Positions 1,284 through 31,632 of a stretch of DNA of 35,777 nt are shown here, piece after piece; the first letter of the stretch is position 1, and every line of letters begins with the position of its first letter. Source of the stretch: Anaerococcus sp. (GTDB lineage: Bacteria; Bacillota; Clostridia; Tissierellales; Peptoniphilaceae); NCBI GenBank assembly GCA_022780515.1, contig JALEUV010000102.1, positions 1 through 35,777 on the forward strand, given 5' to 3'. The notes under the pieces were generated by a model. The model worked only from the letters and a program-made list of their open reading frames with translations, ran no database searches and was not told where the DNA came from. A program made the translations under genes and the position numbers.

Positions 1284-2913
1284 AAATTTTAAAAAAATGT
1301 TGAAATTAGCAGATATAAACTCTAAAACTTTTTTATTTTTTATTTTTATATCTGTACTATCATCAATATTCAATATTGGATTTTCTCTTAATATTAAACC
1401 ATTGTTAGATAGATCATTGCAAAATCATCAAATTATGAGTGATAGTTTAATTAAATTTATTATTTTTGCATTTTTCATGACTCTATTAAAACATATTAGA
1501 CTTATTATTTTTGATATTTTTTCTGTTAGTGTAGAAGAAAAACTGACTGAAAAGATTGTATTGAAAATTAGAGAAAGAAATATTGATTATTTTGAGAATA
1601 CAAAAGAAGGTGCCTTATCTCACCTTATTAATAATAGAATAGAGGAGTTTTCGGAGTTTTTAGGAAATAATGTTTCAAATATATTTTATTTACCTATATA
1701 TTTTCTATTTGTTTTTGTGACATTAATAATTATAGACTATAGGGTTAGTATCATTATTATACCAACTATATTTTTGGGTGTTTATCTAGATTTAAAAAAT
1801 TCTGATAGATTATTAGAAACTTCCAATATATACTATGAAAGTGAAAGAAATCTCTCGGCATTTCAAAAAGAGATGATAGAGAATGCTTTAGAGATAAAAA
1901 TAGAAAATATGGATAATTATATAATTAGTCAGCATTCTAATAAAGTTGATTATTTTATTTCAAAAGGAAATAAGCTAAATGAAATGTCTCAAAGAGCCTA
2001 TGTCCCAGCTCTGATAAATGAATATTTGCCTAGCATTGTTCTTGTATTTCTCATCATATTTAAGTTTGCAAACAATGAACCAATAACATATGGGAAATTT
2101 TTGACTATTTTATCTCTAACTAGCAATGTTTCTTTGCCGTTTGCGAATTATTTACGTTCTTTAGCAAAACTAAAGAAAATTAATCCTTTAATGGATGAAC
2201 TTCTAGAGATAATAAATTTAGAAGAAGAAAGTTGCATAATCCACACTGATAGTGACTACATAATCGATATAGAAAATTTATCGTTTTCTTATAATGGTAA
2301 TCCTATACTAAGGGATGTTGATTTGAAGGTAAAAGATGGAGAAAAAATAGGAATAATTGGTAAATCTGGATCGGGAAAATCAACACTATTAAAACTTATT
2401 GTTGGCATATATAAACCAGATATCGGCAAGATAAGTGTGTTAAATACGCTTACTAATGAAAACATAGAAGAGATTTTGCGAAGTATTTCCTATGTTGATA
2501 ATAAAAATTATATGCTAGATGGGAGTATTAGATATAATATTTTATTAAAAGATATCGAAAATATTCCAGAAAGAGAAATTTCTTTAAAAATGATATCTGA
2601 AAAAATATATATGGATGATATATTAAATTTAAAAAATGAAGACAGTATTAATTTTAATATTAGTAATCTATCAGGAGGTCAGAAATCAAAAATTTCAATT
2701 GCTAGAGCTTTATTAAAGGAAGAATCAAAGATTTTGATACTAGATGAGCCTAGTGCATCTATGGATGTAAAATCTGAAAAAGGTTTACAAAAATTATTGG
2801 AAGAGTCTGATAAAACTATAATCCTCACTACGCATAGGAAAAGTTTATTAGAAATTTGTGATAGAATATATAATTTGAAAAATGGAAACTTAATAGAGGT
2901 AAACTATGTATAG
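1276..2913 (+). CDS. ABC transporter, fused permease/ATP-binding half-transporter (consensus signature LSGGQ)
   Basis: N-terminal hydrophobic TM domain; Walker A GKSGSGKSTLLKL, signature NLSGGQKSKISIARALL, Walker B ILILDEPSAS, H-loop TTHR. ORF opens at 1261 but MYKNFKKML at 1276 has the better start context (ggaggctat). Confidence 0.9.
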   Translation: MYKNFKKMLKLADINSKTFLFFIFISVLSSIFNIGFSLNIKPLLDRSLQNHQIMSDSLIKFIIFAFFMTLLKHIRLIIFDIFSVSVEEKLTEKIVLKIRERNIDYFENTKEGALSHLINNRIEEFSEFLGNNVSNIFYLPIYFLFVFVTLIIIDYRVSIIIIPTIFLGVYLDLKNSDRLLETSNIYYESERNLSAFQKEMIENALEIKIENMDNYIISQHSNKVDYFISKGNKLNEMSQRAYVPALINEYLPSIVLVFLIIFKFANNEPITYGKFLTILSLTSNVSLPFANYLRSLAKLKKINPLMDELLEIINLEEESCIIHTDSDYIIDIENLSFSYNGNPILRDVDLKVKDGEKIGIIGKSGSGKSTLLKLIVGIYKPDIGKISVLNTLTNENIEEILRSISYVDNKNYMLDGSIRYNILLKDIENIPEREISLKMISEKIYMDDILNLKNEDSINFNISNLSGGQKSKISIARALLKEESKILILDEPSASMDVKSEKGLQKLLEESDKTIILTTHRKSLLEICDRIYNLKNGNLIEVNYV

Positions 2914-5913: not shown

Positions 5914-6729
5914 TCAACCTCCTTGAACTGTAAGTTTCCTCAGTAATTTATTGAATAGAAACCTGTATATAGTATATAAGATTATAATATTTACCACAAG
6001 TAAAATTACCGATTTTAAAAAATAAGTTCCTTCACCCAACAAGGTTATTATAGGTATATTATAAAAATATTTGAAGGGAAGAAGATTTGATATTTTATAT
6101 AAAAAATCGGGATATACTTGTATTGGTATAACTCTACCTGATAATAGTAAAAGTAGAGCATATTTTAAGTTTTGTATACCCCAAGTACTGATAGTATAGA
6201 AACTTAAAATTCCGAAGAATATTTCAAATATAAAATAGTAAATATAGGTTAGACCTGTTATTATAATAAATTGAACCAAGTTTGGCAAAGTTATATCAAT
6301 GCCAACAAATATTCCCAATAGGTAAAAGGGTATGTTTAAAATTACAAGTCTGAACAGACTTTTGCCTAAGCTTTGGTAGAATAATTGTTCTATAAAAGAA
6401 AAAGGTCTCAATAGAGTAAATATTATATCACCCTTTTTTACGGAAATTCCTATCTCTTGACTTACTTGGGTAGGGTAAATATCTTCAATAATTGTTGAAA
6501 TGATAATATAAGTAAACATTTGTTCAAAGCCTAATAAGCCGATATTGTTGCCAGCATATATAGCCTTCCATATGAAATATTGAATTGTTATAAATAACAG
6601 ATCGCTTATTATTTTTACTATGTTGGCTTCTTTATATACTTGATTAGTCAAAAATCCAATTTTGATAAGTCTTTTTCTAATTCTATTTTTGCCATTGATA
6701 ATTTTAGAATTCGTCATTTTTCTCTCCAA
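5914..6729 (-). CDS. ABC-2 family transporter permease
   Basis: 271 aa hydrophobic protein; KGDIIFTLLRPFSFIEQLF motif parallels GEFDRFLTKP of the neighbour; overlaps the ATPase gene. Confidence 0.8.
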   Translation of the reverse strand: MERKMTNSKIINGKNRIRKRLIKIGFLTNQVYKEANIVKIISDLLFITIQYFIWKAIYAGNNIGLLGFEQMFTYIIISTIIEDIYPTQVSQEIGISVKKGDIIFTLLRPFSFIEQLFYQSLGKSLFRLVILNIPFYLLGIFVGIDITLPNLVQFIIITGLTYIYYFIFEIFFGILSFYTISTWGIQNLKYALLLLLSGRVIPIQVYPDFLYKISNLLPFKYFYNIPIITLLGEGTYFLKSVILLVVNIIILYTIYRFLFNKLLRKLTVQGG

Positions 6730-7687
6730 GGAAGTACTTTAAAGAATCTTTAAAACTAATATTGGCAAACTTAATGGAATCTATGGACGAAGCCAAATCA
6801 TCGTATATATTTTTTACTAACTCCGATCTATCTTTTATATTCGATATGTCAATAATTGCTTTATTATTGTCGAAAGATAAGTCAAGATCCTTAGCTAAAA
6901 GTTTGCTTTTTATATTCTCGTCAATTTTTTTGAAGTAAACTTCAAGTTTTTCTATATTATATATTTGTGAGATGTATTCTTTACTACTGTCGTTTATAAC
7001 TTTTCCATGATGTAAAATAATAACCCTGTCACAAATCCTTTCTATGTCTTCAAAATCATGAGTTGTAAGAATAATAGTTGTTTTCTCCTTAATAGTATTC
7101 AAAAAATCTAGGATTGAATCTTTTGTCAATATATCTAAGCCTATGGTCGGCTCATCAAGGAATACAATTTGTGGATTGTACAAAAAGGCACTTATTAGCT
7201 CCGCTTTCATCCTTTGACCAAGGCTAAGGGTTCTAACAGGATTGTTAATAAAATCTTTGACATCCAATATGTCGGTTAAATAATCAAGCCTTGATTTAAA
7301 ATCTTCATCACTTATATCATACATATCTTTTATTATATAATAAGATTCCATAGGAGATACATCCCGTCTTAGATTGGATCTTTGACCGAAAACAGTAGAA
7401 ATTTTTTTGTTATTGATTTCTCTTTTTTCAAAAGGATCATTGCCGAAGACTCTTACAGATCCTGAACTAGGGGCTAAGATACCTGTCATCATCTTGATTA
7501 GGGTACTTTTACCTGCTCCATTTAATCCGATAAGACCAACGGTTTCACCACTATTTATTTTAAAGGATACGGAGTCAACAGATGTAACAATCTGTTTTTG
7601 GGATTTAAATTTAAAATAATCGATGAATGACTTGTTTTTATTAACTTTAAATTGCTTAGTGAGATTATTTGTTTCAATTAAGGCCAT
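6704..7687 (-). CDS. ABC transporter ATP-binding protein (multidrug/daunorubicin-resistance-like)
   Basis: Walker A GLNGAGKSTLIKMMTG, signature LSLGQRMKAELISAFL, Walker B IVFLDEPTIGLD, H-loop TTHD; overlaps the downstream permease gene by 26 nt. Confidence 0.92.
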   Translation of the reverse strand: MALIETNNLTKQFKVNKNKSFIDYFKFKSQKQIVTSVDSVSFKINSGETVGLIGLNGAGKSTLIKMMTGILAPSSGSVRVFGNDPFEKREINNKKISTVFGQRSNLRRDVSPMESYYIIKDMYDISDEDFKSRLDYLTDILDVKDFINNPVRTLSLGQRMKAELISAFLYNPQIVFLDEPTIGLDILTKDSILDFLNTIKEKTTIILTTHDFEDIERICDRVIILHHGKVINDSSKEYISQIYNIEKLEVYFKKIDENIKSKLLAKDLDLSFDNNKAIIDISNIKDRSELVKNIYDDLASSIDSIKFANISFKDSLKYFLGEKNDEF

Positions 7688-19100: not shown

Positions 19101-19481
19101 GAGCTGGCCTTAGAAGAAAGTGTTAGGAAGGGTCTAATGGATAAAGCTGACCTCAAGGTCCTAGATTATGACTTGCTCTTAGGCTTCTTTAACTCAGATA
19201 TCTTACAAGAGGCACTTGTTTCATCTGTTGATATTAGAAAAGAAGAGTCCTTCCTCATGGTCTATGGGGACTCCTATATAAATGGACAGATAGACCTGAT
19301 GATAGAAAAGGAAGACGATATAATCCTTATCGACTTTAAGACTGATAGGGTAAAAAGAGAGGGGCTCTATGATAAGCAACTTAAACTTTATAAGTCAGCC
19401 ATCGAAAAGTCCCAAGCCAAAAATGTAAGCCATTGCTTTATTTATTGGTACAACTTCAATGAATTTGAAGAAATAAATTAA
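16116..19481 (+). CDS. addA: ATP-dependent helicase/nuclease subunit A (AddA)
   Basis: UvrD-like motifs: VVSAAAGSGKTSVLVERIL, IQTLHSFCADMLR, FDEYQDSNEIQ, VGDVKQSIYGFRRAEP, RIMTIHKSKGLEFPVVILAD, LYVAMTRPE; nuclease GQIDLMIEKEDDIILIDFKTDR. Confidence 0.97.
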   Translation: MIMMEFTKDQELAIDTRGKNIVVSAAAGSGKTSVLVERILRLVIDDKEDIRSFIIVTFTNKAAIEMKDRIRSGLEKKLRESKEDFKFIRDQIKGLRSAHIQTLHSFCADMLRENFYFFDDLSPNFKVINDRTTTILKTRAMDFVFDRAYEKMDDSFKKFLHSFGSSKNDKGAREVILKTYTKSRGQIDPMGWLEDATTKGLNLDLFKKSLSLELSQIEAMSLNNVNIAKDNQMSDKLLGIVNEDYDIVRGLISDYNKDWDDFIKKIIKVTFPRIGKLKSDDKAVYERIKADRDAYKDRIKTIGKIIKNSDSQTLAKFSDLEKELLAEIRLLVTNFDLIYTRLKEEKSYMDFDDLEHKFIDLLKIDEAREKLRGKFNHIFFDEYQDSNEIQNFIIESLKSSNNLFFVGDVKQSIYGFRRAEPKLFLEKLDSYQEDDNSTRIDLNQNFRSEKDILDFDNFIFDNLMTKESSDIDYKDGGHRLNFTKNNPTSYKKVNVRVLDKKIREEDYLVELIEEIRSLGFAYKDIAILLRSGAKSYIYEEAFKKAGLPFFNDISKVSFRAVEVEFFINMLKYLVNPKDDLVLLSVIRSEVFGFSEDDISAIKLSGKFTSFEEAFSAYDRADDLGERIRDFKSNFRNLSYLLTINKLYDFGNLLFESSGLYEFLLGRDRSSERIGNVNAFIETMGEYDKTNDNGLYGFLSYIETLSLNQSDNILEARDLSASEDLVRIMTIHKSKGLEFPVVILADSAKQFNRKHLMESVVFDDDIGLGINISDYSNKVRFASLSKNIISEKITIENKKEEMRILYVAMTRPETMLFITGNKSMATAQKLRARTDFLNMSSYLDWILAILSGEKMADQIYEGAYSSKLSEIARLDFVDEVKEIDKYEKEDLRDFLEDKKVNPSLYNEIENLYDREYPFDEDTRSLLKRSVTEISKDFDHRSSGFEPFDDRTYKEKSDFRKPNFLEEEKTYKAVEVGSIIHRAFEVLDLKTYDEDSLELALEESVRKGLMDKADLKVLDYDLLLGFFNSDILQEALVSSVDIRKEESFLMVYGDSYINGQIDLMIEKEDDIILIDFKTDRVKREGLYDKQLKLYKSAIEKSQAKNVSHCFIYWYNFNEFEEIN

Positions 19482-20206
19482 TAAAAGCCACCATTTATAT
19501 CAGCAATGTTGCCAGTTATATAGCTTCCTTCATCTGATATCAAGAAGGCAAGAAGGTCTGCTACTTCGGAAGGTCTGGCAAATCTACCGAGGGGCAGGTT
19601 TTTTTCTAACTCTTCTAGCTCCTCTCTATTAAAATCTCCCCTCATCATATCAGTATCAACGATGCCTGGAGCTATGGCATTGACCCTGATGCCAGATGGA
19701 GCAAGCTCCTTTGAAATGGCCTTGGTAAAGGCATTGATCCCACCCTTGGTTAAAGAATATAGGCTCTCCATAGAAGCGCCCTCCTTCCCCCAAATGGAAG
19801 AAATGTTTACTATGACTCCATACTTATGACTTATCATTGAAGGGGCAGCCCTCTTTGTCGTGAGAAAGACTGACCTTAAATTAGTGGCAACTATCTTGTC
19901 AAAATCATCAGCAGTTTCATCTTGGATAAGGGAGAAGTGAGAAATCCCAGCATTGTTAATGAGAATATCCACATGGCCAAAATTTTTCTCAGCCTGGTTA
20001 AAGACTTCATCAACTTCCCTTTCTTTTGATACATCTGCCTTGACTGCTATTATATTTGGATTAATTTCTCGAAGCTCGCCCAAGAGGCTTAGGGCTTTAT
20101 CCTTGCTGTGGTTATAATTAATTACGAGATTATAAGACCCTGCAAGGCGTCTTGCTATAGCCTGCCCTATCCCCCTAGAGGCTCCTGTTATAAGTACTGT
20201 TTTCAT
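19478..20206 (-). CDS. Short-chain dehydrogenase/reductase (3-oxoacyl-ACP reductase FabG-like)
   Basis: TGASRGIGQAIA, LINNAGIS, YSLTKGGINAFTKAISKELAPSGIRVNAIAPGIVDTDM; the expected catalytic Y...K (YSLTK) is present. Confidence 0.93.
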   Translation of the reverse strand: MKTVLITGASRGIGQAIARRLAGSYNLVINYNHSKDKALSLLGELREINPNIIAVKADVSKEREVDEVFNQAEKNFGHVDILINNAGISHFSLIQDETADDFDKIVATNLRSVFLTTKRAAPSMISHKYGVIVNISSIWGKEGASMESLYSLTKGGINAFTKAISKELAPSGIRVNAIAPGIVDTDMMRGDFNREELEELEKNLPLGRFARPSEVADLLAFLISDEGSYITGNIADINGGFY

Positions 20207-20285
20207 ATCCTTATTTTATCATAGAAAAATCCTGGTAGAAAGTATATTTTTGGGTATGAAAGAAATAGAAGATAAAGGAGGTATA

Positions 20286-21122
20286 ATGAAATACTACACA
20301 CTTAATGACGGAATACAAATCCCAAGCCTAGGACTTGGTACTTATAGGATAGAAGATGAGAAGACAATAGATGAAGTAATAAAGGCAGCCTTTGAAGCAG
20401 GTTATGAATATATCGATACAGCAAAATTTTACAATAACGAAGAATATATAGGCAGGGCATTGAAGAATTCTTCCAAAAACCGAAGCGACTACAAGATAGC
20501 TACCAAGATTTGGCCATCAGATTTTGAAACTGATAAGGCAAAGTATGCCATAGAAGATAGCCTAAAGAATTTACAAACAGACTATATTGATGTTCTCCAC
20601 CTCCACTGGTATGGTAGGGACTTTGATAAGGCTTGGAAGGTTTTTATGGACTACAAGGACCAAGGGATAATCAAGTCCATAGCAGTATGTAACTTTATGC
20701 CAAACCAACTTGGAGAGCTCTTAGAAGTAGGAGAAAGGCCAGTAATGGATCAATTAGAATCCCACCTCTTCCTCCAAGATCCAGAAACCAAGCAATTCTT
20801 GGATGAAAATGGCATCCTCCACCAAGGATGGAGTCCACTAGCCAGGGGCAAGGATAATATTTTTGAAGAAAAAGTCCTAGTGACCCTTGCAGAAAAATAT
20901 AAGAAGACCCCAGCCCAAATTGCCCTAAGGTGGCACATAGAACGTGGGTCAATGGTTATACCAAAGTCTGTCCACCCAGACCGTATCAGGGAAAATATAG
21001 ATATATTTGACTTTTCTTTAGACGAAAGTGATATGCACGCACTGGCAAGTCTTGATAAGAAAAAAAGATTCTCAAACGACCCTTTGGATGAAAAATGGCT
21101 TGAAAAAGCTCGCAATATGTAA
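20286..21122 (+). CDS. Aldo/keto reductase
   Basis: IPSLGLGTYRI, YIDTAKFYNNEEYIGRALK, DYIDVLHLHWYG, IKSIAVCNFMPNQLGEL, IPKSVHPDRIRENIDIFDF. ORF opens at 20250 but the AAAGGAGG RBS sits before the ATG at 20286. Confidence 0.93.
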   Translation: MKYYTLNDGIQIPSLGLGTYRIEDEKTIDEVIKAAFEAGYEYIDTAKFYNNEEYIGRALKNSSKNRSDYKIATKIWPSDFETDKAKYAIEDSLKNLQTDYIDVLHLHWYGRDFDKAWKVFMDYKDQGIIKSIAVCNFMPNQLGELLEVGERPVMDQLESHLFLQDPETKQFLDENGILHQGWSPLARGKDNIFEEKVLVTLAEKYKKTPAQIALRWHIERGSMVIPKSVHPDRIRENIDIFDFSLDESDMHALASLDKKKRFSNDPLDEKWLEKARNM

Positions 21123-27944: not shown

Positions 27945-28800
27945 GATGGAAGAGATTTTTAAAAACTTGCCTATTGAAGTAAAGGACATTAGGGCCCTTC
28001 CCGGAGGAGATACCAATGAGGCCTATAAAATCCTAGGTCAAGACGAGCCCTATTTTCTACTAATCCACCCAGGGGGAAGTGAAGGATTCTTCGATGGGGA
28101 AGCTAAGGGGTTAGAGCTTTTTAATGAAAATAATATTGCAGCTCCAAGGTTAATAGATAAGGGCCTTGTAGATGATAAGGCCTACCTCCTTATATCTTAC
28201 TTGGAGGAAGGACCTGTGGGGTCTATGGGAGATTTGGCAAGGCTTATGAAAGAGCTCCACCAGATAGAAAGTCCTAATGGTAAATTTGGCTTTGACTTCC
28301 CCTACGAGTCCGACCATATCAAATTTACAAATGCCTATGTGGATACTTGGACTGAGCTTTTTATAGGCCAAAGGATGGATGTATTATCTAAAAGCCTGAT
28401 CAAAAAAGGCCTCTGGCAAAATCAAGATAAGCTCCTTTATCATAACATAAGAAGAATAATGGAGAGGGTCCTAGGAGAGAGGAAGAGTCAGCCTCATCTC
28501 TTGCATGGGGACTTCTATTCAGGAAATTATATGTTCTTAGAAGATAAGAGCCCAGCGATCTTTGATCCCAACCCCCTCTATGGAGATTATGAGTTTGATA
28601 TAGGTATAAGTATGGCCTTTGCTCCTCTTGGTAGGGACTTTTATAATGAGTATTTTAAAACCATAAAGAGGGATAAGAACTTGCCCCTAAGGCTTGAATT
28701 TTATAGGCTCTACTTTTATATGATACATTTAAATAAGTTTGGTAAAGTTTACAAGAATCTTGTAGATGAATCCATATATAAAATTCTTAAAAGTTCATAG
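27928..28800 (+). CDS. Fructosamine kinase / aminoglycoside phosphotransferase-like kinase
   Basis: GGDTNEAYKI, LLISYLEEGPVG, catalytic LLHGDFYSGNYMF, DPNPLYGDYEFDIGISMAF (FN3K family pattern); overlaps capA by 17 nt. Confidence 0.88.
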   Translation: MMQVSEMEEIFKNLPIEVKDIRALPGGDTNEAYKILGQDEPYFLLIHPGGSEGFFDGEAKGLELFNENNIAAPRLIDKGLVDDKAYLLISYLEEGPVGSMGDLARLMKELHQIESPNGKFGFDFPYESDHIKFTNAYVDTWTELFIGQRMDVLSKSLIKKGLWQNQDKLLYHNIRRIMERVLGERKSQPHLLHGDFYSGNYMFLEDKSPAIFDPNPLYGDYEFDIGISMAFAPLGRDFYNEYFKTIKRDKNLPLRLEFYRLYFYMIHLNKFGKVYKNLVDESIYKILKSS

Positions 28801-28823
28801 GTCATATGGTCTATGAATTTTTT
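28794..28823 (+). terminator. Rho-independent terminator of the pot-capA-kinase operon
   Basis: TTCATAG (28794-28800) / CTATGAA (28811-28817) followed by TTTTTT; the kinase stop codon TAG lies inside the stem. Confidence 0.65.
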
Positions 28824-28861
28824 AAATTTGGGTATATATTATATAAGGTGATGCTGATATT

Positions 28862-29779
28862 ATGAAAGAAAACAAATTTATTATTGATGAATGTAAAAAC
28901 CCAAAAGAATTTTCGATTAAACATGGGCAAGTTCCTATAAAACTATCAGAAGACTTGGACGAATCAATCAAGTACTTGCTCTGGTACGTGCCAAATATTT
29001 CTTCTGAGCAAGCTAGCAAGAACGCCCTCCTCCTAAATCCTGAATATGACGATTATATTTTTGATGAAATAAGGCTAAAAATGGACCTAGGAGAAGAGGA
29101 TGTCTTGATAAGTGATGAAATAACAGAAGAGCTAGCCGATCATTTTAGGGACTCAATATGTACAGATGAGCAAAAGCTTGTAATGACCCTATCAGATAAC
29201 AAGGAAACCAAGACCATGGCCTTGTTGAGGCATATAAGAAATGCCATAGCCCATGGAAACTTTAATGTGATTGATGACCTAGTTATAGGCTTTGATGTAA
29301 AAAAGAGCCAAGACTTTGTAGAGTATAGGGGGATTTTTAAGATAAACCCTAGCAATTTATTAAAGGTCCTTAGAAAAATAGATGTCGAGCTAACTAGCGA
29401 AGCCTTCATAGCTGATGCCTTCAAGAGATCAGGCTACCATGTGGAGCCTTTTGAAGAGAAATTTCAAAGGTCCCATAGGTTTGACCTCTTTGCCAAGAAG
29501 AAAGACAAGGCCTATGCTATCGAAATTTTAAATCTAAAAAATAGTGACAAACTTGACGAAGACTTTGTAAGGGATTTAATAAATACTATGGCAGATATCG
29601 AATCAACTGCCAAACCTATACTTATTATTAATTCCTCTTACCTCACAGAGGCTAGCAAGGAAGAGCTACTTAAGAGAGATATCATAATCCTTGATATAAA
29701 AAATATTAAGAAGATGAATCAGGGAAGAGATATGGTTAGTGAAATTGTTAGAGATCAAGAAGTATATAAAAATTTGTAA
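28862..29779 (+). CDS. Predicted two-domain protein: HEPN-like (pEK499_p136-like RNase) + PD-(D/E)xK/Mrr-like nuclease fold
   Basis: MALLRHIRNAIAHGNFNVIDDLVIGFD matches the HEPN R-N-x3-H motif context. The C-terminal AFIADAFKRSGYHVEPFEEKFQRSHRFDLFAKKKDKAYAIEILNLKNSDK...PILIINSSYLTEASKEELLKRDIIILDIKNI matches the Mrr-like restriction endonuclease pattern (D...E-x-[L], then beta-strand NSS..T..A). Confidence 0.65.
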   Translation: MKENKFIIDECKNPKEFSIKHGQVPIKLSEDLDESIKYLLWYVPNISSEQASKNALLLNPEYDDYIFDEIRLKMDLGEEDVLISDEITEELADHFRDSICTDEQKLVMTLSDNKETKTMALLRHIRNAIAHGNFNVIDDLVIGFDVKKSQDFVEYRGIFKINPSNLLKVLRKIDVELTSEAFIADAFKRSGYHVEPFEEKFQRSHRFDLFAKKKDKAYAIEILNLKNSDKLDEDFVRDLINTMADIESTAKPILIINSSYLTEASKEELLKRDIIILDIKNIKKMNQGRDMVSEIVRDQEVYKNL

Positions 29780-29871
29780 AAAAATGTGATTTTTTGAAAT
29801 CAAGGGGTATATTAAATAAGTAAGAATATTCTGAAATATATTTGTTATGAAAAACAAAATAAGGAGGACTT

Positions 29872-30942
29872 ATGACAGAAAATCGTAGAAGAAGAGACGA
29901 TAACAAAATTTATGAGAGAGCAACATCTCCACAAACTGCCGGCAAAAACCTATCATGGGGAGCCATCTTTGCAGGTGCTATATCTGCAGCAGCAGTATTT
30001 TTAGTATTAAACCTTATAACAGCAGCTTTAGGATTTGGTTTCCTAAATCCAACTGATCCAAACCCACTATCAGGTATCGGAGTAGCAACAGGTATTTGGA
30101 CAATAGTTACATTAATTGTGTCATTCTTAGCTGGTGGATTTGTAGCAGGTTATTCTGCAAGATCAACAGGTATTCTACACGGTGGAATTACTTGGGCTTT
30201 AGCTATCCTTTTACTATTCACACTAGTATTTAACGCTCTAGCTTCAGCACTAGGTTTTGCAGGAAACGTACTAGGAACTGTAGCAGGTGGAGTTGGAAGT
30301 GCAGCTACAAGCGTTGCAACTACAGCAGAATCAGCTATTAGTGATAGCCTATCAAGCGTTGGAGATTCTATAGCAGAAGTTGACACAGAAGAACTTCAAA
30401 ACAACCTAGAAACTTATCTAGCCGACACAGAAGTAGAAGAACTACAACCTGACTACATCAAAAACAAACTACAAGAAAGTAGAGATGAAGTAACAGCGGC
30501 AGTAAAAGATTTAGCTGTTAACCCAGAAAATAGTGAACAAATCGTAACTGACCTAGCAAACAGCCTAGGAGAAAAAGCTGGTTCAATCCTTGAAGCAGTT
30601 GATGAAGATGCAGTTTACACAGCAGTATCAAACAACTCTGATTTAAGTGAAGAAGAAATTCAAGAAATATCTTCAAACATCTACAACGGATTAACAACAG
30701 CAGCAGAAGCAGCTCAAGAAACACTAACAGTAGCAAGCGAAGAAGCTTCTAAACTTGTAAACCAAGTAGCAACATCAGTTAACCAAGGTGTTGAAGATGC
30801 TAAACAAGGTGCTCAAGATGCAACAAACAAAGCATCATTTGGATCTGTTCTAGTATTCGTTGGTTTACTATTAGCCTTAGTAGTAAGTGCTATCGGTGGT
30901 AAACTTGGAGAAAAAGCATCACTACGTTTTGTAGAAAGATAA
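29872..30942 (+). CDS. Membrane protein with N-terminal 3-4 TM 'WGAIFAGA' module, long Ala/Glu-rich helical insert and C-terminal TM
   Basis: LSWGAIFAGAISAAAVFLVLNLITAALGFG, GIWTIVTLIVSFLAGGFVAGYSA, LHGGITWALAILLLF resemble 'PhnA-like/YrzE-like' membrane proteins; strong RBS aaggagg. Confidence 0.75.
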   Translation: MTENRRRRDDNKIYERATSPQTAGKNLSWGAIFAGAISAAAVFLVLNLITAALGFGFLNPTDPNPLSGIGVATGIWTIVTLIVSFLAGGFVAGYSARSTGILHGGITWALAILLLFTLVFNALASALGFAGNVLGTVAGGVGSAATSVATTAESAISDSLSSVGDSIAEVDTEELQNNLETYLADTEVEELQPDYIKNKLQESRDEVTAAVKDLAVNPENSEQIVTDLANSLGEKAGSILEAVDEDAVYTAVSNNSDLSEEEIQEISSNIYNGLTTAAEAAQETLTVASEEASKLVNQVATSVNQGVEDAKQGAQDATNKASFGSVLVFVGLLLALVVSAIGGKLGEKASLRFVER

Positions 30943-30954
30943 TAAAAAACTAAG

Positions 30955-30983
30955 AGCTTTCGGTTTAGCCGAAGGCTTTTTTT
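30955..30983 (+). terminator. Rho-independent terminator
   Basis: AGCTTTCGG-TTTAG-CCGAAGGCT stem-loop followed by T7. Confidence 0.9.
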
Positions 30984-31160
30984 GTACACAAATTAAAAAG
31001 ATAATTATGAAATACCTATCTCTCTACTAAGAAAAATAAGCAAGTCCTATGATGACTACTATAAGAAAATGTTAAGGGCAAATGACTTATACCTTATGCA
31101 AAAAAGTAAGTGTAAATGGTATAATAATATAAGTTAACATTATTTTTGAGGAAGAGCATT

Positions 31161-31632
31161 TTGGTCATATTAATTACTGGGTCAAGTCTTACTGGCAAGA
31201 CCTTTTAGAAAGATACAAGATACCTTATTTTTCCATAGTCCACATTAAATGAGCCTAATTAGGTCAAAGTATACTGATTTTACTGCCTATGACGATGATG
31301 AATTGACAAGGAAAATGTGGCCTATCCTAAGGGAGATGATAAAAACAGTTATAGAGAATAATCAGAATTTAATAATAGAGGGGGCCTATATACCAAAAGA
31401 CTGGTACAAAGACTTTGATAGAAACTACCTTAAATAAATTAAATTCTATTGTCTAGTTATGGACTTGTTCTTATATAGAAAAAAATTATGAGTCCATCAT
31501 AACCAACAAAGATATAATAGAAAATAAATAGTCAGATATCCAATAAAAGGAAGAACTTATAGCAGACAATCTTAGAAACTATGAGGACTTTAAAGGGCAA
31601 AATATAGTTTTATCTATAAATAATGCCAAATA
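31161..31632 (+). pseudogene. Decayed P-loop (zeta-toxin/adenylate-kinase-like) kinase
   Basis: Reads across frames LVILITGSSLTGKTF / LERYKIPYFSI.HIK / MSLIRSKYTDFTAYDDDELTRKMWPILREMIKTVIENNQNLIIEGAYIPKDWYKDFDRNYLK / ..IKFYCLVMDLF..., with stops and frameshifts; Walker A GSSLTGKT visible. Confidence 0.8.

Follow-up and report, generated by a model that had tools for sequence, protein, structure and literature searches.

A predicted HEPN-Mrr two-domain protein encoded by a core, vertically inherited gene of Anaerococcus

HEPN toxins are common. The conflict systems in which HEPN and Mrr domains are usually encountered are mobile and patchy, and defence genes usually evolve fast and have a patchy distribution. 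The hallmark of metal-independent HEPN ribonucleases is Rx4-6H with a polar residue after the arginine (PMC3710099). Among the described families the pEK499_p136-like HEPN proteins (PF18736; Anantharaman et al. 2013, PMC3710099) carry an Rx4H site. In Table 1 of that paper they are given without REase fusion and have only operon neighbours (R-M, ART, Macro, NamA, Pgl). The DUF4145-REase and EC042_2821 HEPN-REase fusions of the same table do combine HEPN and REase-fold domains in a single chain; their HEPN families are different ones, and helicase, wHTH or zinc-ribbon parts and R-M operons often accompany them. AbiF/AbiD (Abi_2 HEPN) of C. difficile are solo RNxxxH HEPN ribonucleases of Bacillota, prophage-borne and patchy, with an RNA antitoxin and no Mrr domain (PMC12373285). 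PMC3710099 does not list a small core gene that joins a pEK499-like HEPN to Mrr_cat, and a literature search gave no paper in which HEPN and Anaerococcus occur together.

The window analysed here is a stretch of 35,777 nucleotides from Anaerococcus sp. (contig JALEUV010000102.1). It contains a 305-aa open reading frame, present where a sequence-only reading had placed it, and its product is referred to as HEPN-Mrr. The features of the locus are given in Table 1. An RBS-like AAGGTG is located ~11 nt 5' of the start. The gene had been described as lying directly after a terminator, which was borne out by a hairpin of -12.2 kcal/mol with a folding z of -5.75 and a U-tract after it. The leader is only ~60 nt long and is mostly occupied by this terminator of the upstream gene. 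The product of the downstream neighbour gave no match in a Pfam search.

Table 1. Features of the HEPN-Mrr locus, in positions of the window.
Feature	Position	Strand	Basis
HEPN-Mrr two-domain protein, 305 aa (domains predicted)	28862..29779	+	ORF call and homologues in 31/31 genus genomes
Predicted HEPN domain, ~residues 30-172	28949..29377	+	Pfam pEK499_p136 matches, hhalign 74%
Putative HEPN catalytic motif R126-N127-A-I-A-H131	29237..29254	+	R, N and H invariant in 52/52 homologues
Mrr_cat (PD-(D/E)xK-fold) domain, residues 180-285	29399..29716	+	PF04471 and hhalign
D208, first catalytic carboxylate position	29483..29485	+	D or E in 52/52
E221-I222-L223, degenerate E-x-K	29522..29530	+	Position 223 compared across homologues
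Intrinsic terminator of upstream fructosamine-kinase-like gene	28789..28822	+	Hairpin, then U-run
GGGTAT, sigma-B-type -10-like element in HEPN-Mrr leader	28830..28835	+	GGGTAW enrichment in genus leaders
GGGTAT 5' of syntenic membrane-protein gene	29805..29810	+	GTTTxA-N13/14-GGGTAW there in several other lineages
Alanine-rich predicted membrane protein, downstream neighbour	29872..30942	+	Syntenic in nearly all Anaerococcus

The RNxxxH motif noticed in the mid-region of the protein lies in residues 121-134 (LLRHIRNAIAHGNF), which contain R126-N127 and H131. R126, N127, A130, H131 and G132 were each invariant in all 52 members of the alignment. The motif is beyond chance, as it is kept in 52/52 members with identity as low as 27%. 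Further near-invariant positions in the HEPN half of the 52-sequence alignment were L39-L40-W41-Y42, P44, S48, Q50, D80 and K105. Residues 39-50 (LLWYVPNISSEQ) form a near-invariant block specific to the HEPN-Mrr family, with the pattern LLWYVPxI-x-S-x-Q. No counterpart of this block was found among known proteins.

The best Pfam match of the HEPN half was pEK499_p136, which was matched at E<=1 by 43 of 50 HEPN-Mrr members (best 3e-5). The match to the window protein covered residues 105-148 (E 0.0011) and scored 19.1 bits against a gathering cut-off of 26.6; the best score in the genus, 24.8 bits, was also under the cut-off. The HEPN half was therefore classed as HEPN-like and not as a member of PF18736. 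The pEK499_p136-like context proposed from the sequence thus held as a resemblance and failed as family membership. Comparison by hhalign with a profile of two genuine pEK499-type proteins, the only members found, gave 74% across the region of the motif. AlphaFold with a three-sequence input predicted helices but these were unreliable, with a pLDDT of 35 for the full protein and 38 for the HEPN part, so the assignment of a HEPN fold rests on the motif and the sub-threshold profile matches. A PDB sequence search with the window protein returned chance-level matches only, the best being EcoRV at E 0.14. The invariant motif and the pEK499-type profile matches, taken with the published criteria, point to the N-terminal ~175 residues being a divergent and probably active HEPN domain. 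That this half acts as an RNase is considered likely.

The C-terminal half had been read as an Mrr-type restriction fold and this was upheld. Pfam Mrr_cat (PF04471) matched residues 180-285 at E 4.3e-6 and 27.3 bits against a cut-off of 21. Alignment by hhalign to 15 independent Mrr_cat proteins gave 95% probability (E 2e-8, residues 165-287). The protein is thus predicted with high confidence to have both a HEPN and an Mrr-type domain. Conservation among homologues agreed for both halves. The HEPN R and H were kept throughout, position 208 was D or E in 52/52 and position 221 was D or E in 51/52.

The canonical D...E-x-K triad is absent in the window protein, where it reads D208, E221 and L223, and most homologues outside the genus retain it in full. 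E-I-L in place of E-x-K had been correctly noted, and the lysine is lost relative to homologues. Outside the genus position 223 was K in 18/21. Inside Anaerococcus it was R in 15, K in 13, L in two and I in one. The L, L and I residues belong to the window protein and its two nearest relatives, a three-species clade with EIL or EII. Lacking the lysine, the window protein has an Mrr fold by profile but is not a canonical Mrr nuclease. The earlier suggestion that the lysine two residues on had migrated into the role was rejected, as the K226 column is variable and holds Asp in the sister protein L003. K213, invariant in 52/52, is the sole nearby lysine conserved throughout.

Both domains are under strong purifying selection. 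The dN/dS of the Mrr domain was 0-0.14 across pairs, and 0.089 for the lysine-less pair formed by the window protein and L002 (94% identity); that of the HEPN half was 0.02-0.13. In the clade of the window the Mrr-type domain is probably non-catalytic. It has lost the lysine yet stays constrained, which suggests a binding or sensing role there. The idea of an inactive or sensor-like second domain therefore fits the window's clade and not the family at large, as most non-genus homologues keep D...E-x-K.

A protein search found the gene in 49 of 150 related genomes, including 31/31 Anaerococcus. Two Anaerococcus records carry homologues at 94 and 69% identity. When 250 genomes of the order were searched with a profile, full-length matches were confined to the Peptoniphilaceae, and other matches in the order covered the C-terminal part alone. 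No full-length match outside the family was found among 399 genomes of the phylum, only single-domain partial matches. Partial matches to a 1116-aa protein in three genomes were set aside as likely chance matches to a helicase-like protein. Within the family the gene is present in many other genera and absent from many others. No relatives were found in the IMG/VR, plasmid and phage collections.

The HEPN-Mrr tree followed that of GyrA in Anaerococcus (n=16, Mantel r 0.954, permutation p 0.0005) and outside the genus (n=14, Mantel r 0.669, permutation p 0.0005), and the branching order inside the genus was largely the same in both trees. At the Anaerococcus loci the downstream membrane gene is kept and the upstream neighbours vary by lineage. 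Outside the genus no recurrent partner gene was found across lineages, the neighbours being lineage-specific. The search for homologues of the same architecture and their neighbourhoods placed the architecture in the Peptoniphilaceae only, with no partner shared across genera. In one complete genome (L008, G022; ~1501-2481, minus strand) the homologue has a stop near the C-terminus, unlike other genus members.

The distribution, the synteny, the agreement between trees and the low dN/dS speak for a core role on the chromosome. They speak against a mobile cassette with a toxin or defence function. HEPN-Mrr is, with high confidence, a core, non-mobile, vertically inherited chromosomal gene. The earlier proposal of a toxin or defence effector gained no support from the distribution, as the gene is universal and syntenic in the genus, is inherited vertically and was not found in phages, plasmids or viral contigs.

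Defence could nevertheless be fixed in lineages. The gene may encode a single-gene abortive-infection effector in which the Mrr-type domain would sense the DNA of a phage, such as DNA that is modified or replicating, and free the HEPN RNase to stop translation. This is judged unlikely. In its favour, both kinds of domain are found repeatedly in defence systems, where HEPN-REase fusions are described (PMC3710099), and PADLOC gave weak matches to a DRT-associated HEPN profile (E 0.003). Some horizontal movement is suggested by additional divergent copies in three Anaerococcus genomes. These second copies (L051, L053 and L054; ~5968-6879, minus strand) are 32% identical and lie beside thioesterase and GNAT genes. 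They group with a homologue of another genus, a pattern suggestive of transfer inside the family. Against a defence role stand the universal presence at a conserved locus, the agreement with GyrA, the low dN/dS of both domains, the lack of defence-gene neighbours at the copies examined and the absence from records of phages and plasmids. Fixation of an innate defence gene could also account for the universal presence.

The same core, vertical pattern under purifying selection would suit a housekeeping RNA-processing or quality-control nuclease, acting in the decay of rRNA, tRNA or mRNA, in which the Mrr-like domain would be structural or nucleic-acid-binding. However, many genera of the family lack the gene, so that it is not essential family-wide. 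The conserved acidic pair and the E-x-K outside the genus also argue for DNA cleavage in ancestral proteins. A housekeeping nuclease is, like abortive infection, held to be improbable.

The gene had been described as standing alone with no obvious antitoxin, and this was supported, with no conserved partner found as either protein or RNA. A toxin of an unrecognised toxin-antitoxin pair would need an antitoxin, either encoded by an adjacent gene or present as a leader RNA, in the manner of AbiF of C. difficile, which uses an adjacent antitoxin RNA (PMC12373285). The neighbourhood comparison found no small gene that is conserved beside HEPN-Mrr across genera, and no Rfam RNA was found in 28400-31300. 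The leader, mostly terminator, has no room for an RNA partner as in AbiF, which was rejected, and the upstream neighbours differ between lineages. A toxin-antitoxin pair is accordingly regarded as very improbable.

The leader contains a candidate sigma-B-type element. Of the HEPN-Mrr genes in the genus that have an intergenic leader of their own, 13/14 carried GGGTAW, compared to 1/20 leaders of other genes at the same loci. The 13 positive leaders represent about four independent lineages, which makes the contrast suggestive and not conclusive, and most leaders outside the genus are without GGGTAW. The window has 32 GGGTAW sites, of which only those at 28830 and 29805 fall clearly between genes. 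A GGGTAT at 20252 is probably also in a leader, that of an aldo/keto reductase (20250-21122) whose real start is likely ~20295 and which is divergent from a short-chain dehydrogenase (19478-20206).

The sigma-B promoter pattern tested was GTTT-N12-15-GGGTAW. The full fit was strong for HEPN-Mrr only in L035 and L039, from two other genera (shuffle p 0.003 each). In the window leader the shuffle p was 0.043; the -35 is not conserved and is weak in the window's clade. In several other lineages GTTTxA-N13/14-GGGTAW occurs in the leader of the downstream membrane gene (shuffle p 0.003-0.04). With sigma-B-like promoters of this form in several species, its product is a possible envelope stress protein. 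No sigma-70-type promoter was detected on the plus strand 5' of HEPN-Mrr. The C. difficile sigma-B consensus is WGWTT-N13-17-(G/T)GGTWA (PMC7494833); none of the HEPN-Mrr leaders matched it and one neighbour-gene leader did. In the same genome as the window (L135, 2458-3879, contig C64) the genes after gyrA are rsbV (STAS), a short rsbW-like ORF and one for a SigBFG-family sigma factor (sigB). One SigBFG-family match over the cut-off was found per listed Anaerococcus genome. The -10 hexamer and the sigB operon make sigma-B control of HEPN-Mrr a possible link.

The universal, stable presence in the genus and the sigma-B-like leader element suggest a stress or stationary-phase role, although a stress link is thought plausible and somewhat short of probable. 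The best overall reading is of a vertically inherited, stress-linked, DNA-associated HEPN RNase fused to an Mrr-type domain, and this is favoured tentatively, at slightly below an even chance. The HEPN domain would dimerise and cut RNA without metal. The Mrr-type domain would bind DNA, and would cleave it in members keeping D...E-x-K. In the window's clade, with the lysine lost, it may serve as a DNA or nucleic-acid sensor or tether controlling the RNase; such control by DNA sensing is rather doubtful. Under stress or in stationary phase the outcome would be RNA decay and a growth slow-down on damaged or foreign DNA. The most specific form, a core sigma-B-linked RNase/DNase with an Mrr domain that is catalytic outside the genus, a DNA sensor in some Anaerococcus and in control of the HEPN RNase, is quite unlikely as a whole. 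If true, HEPN-Mrr would act as a stress-dormancy switch of the housekeeping kind and not as a mobile immune gene, and its family would provide a natural Lys, Arg, Leu series of a REase domain turning from enzyme to sensor.

HEPN-Mrr places both predicted domains in one small protein that is vertically inherited under strong selection in a family of human-associated anaerobes. It offers a testable case in which conflict nucleases would have been recruited to core physiology, and in which a restriction domain has lost the catalytic lysine yet stays constrained. With the pEK499_p136-like HEPN it shares the Rx4H site, as RNxxxH, but it scores under the cut-off and has its own 39-50 block. It matches Mrr_cat over the cut-off and most members outside Anaerococcus keep the catalytic residues, while the lysine is lost in the window's clade and replaced by Arg in half of the genus. 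Several of the compared Mrr_cat proteins have other N-terminal regions where HEPN-Mrr has the HEPN domain. Like AbiF/AbiD it is a solo RNxxxH protein of Bacillota, but it is unlike them in mobility, distribution, RNA antitoxin and Mrr domain. Compared with the DUF4145 and EC042_2821 fusions, HEPN-Mrr is a compact 305-aa solo core gene.
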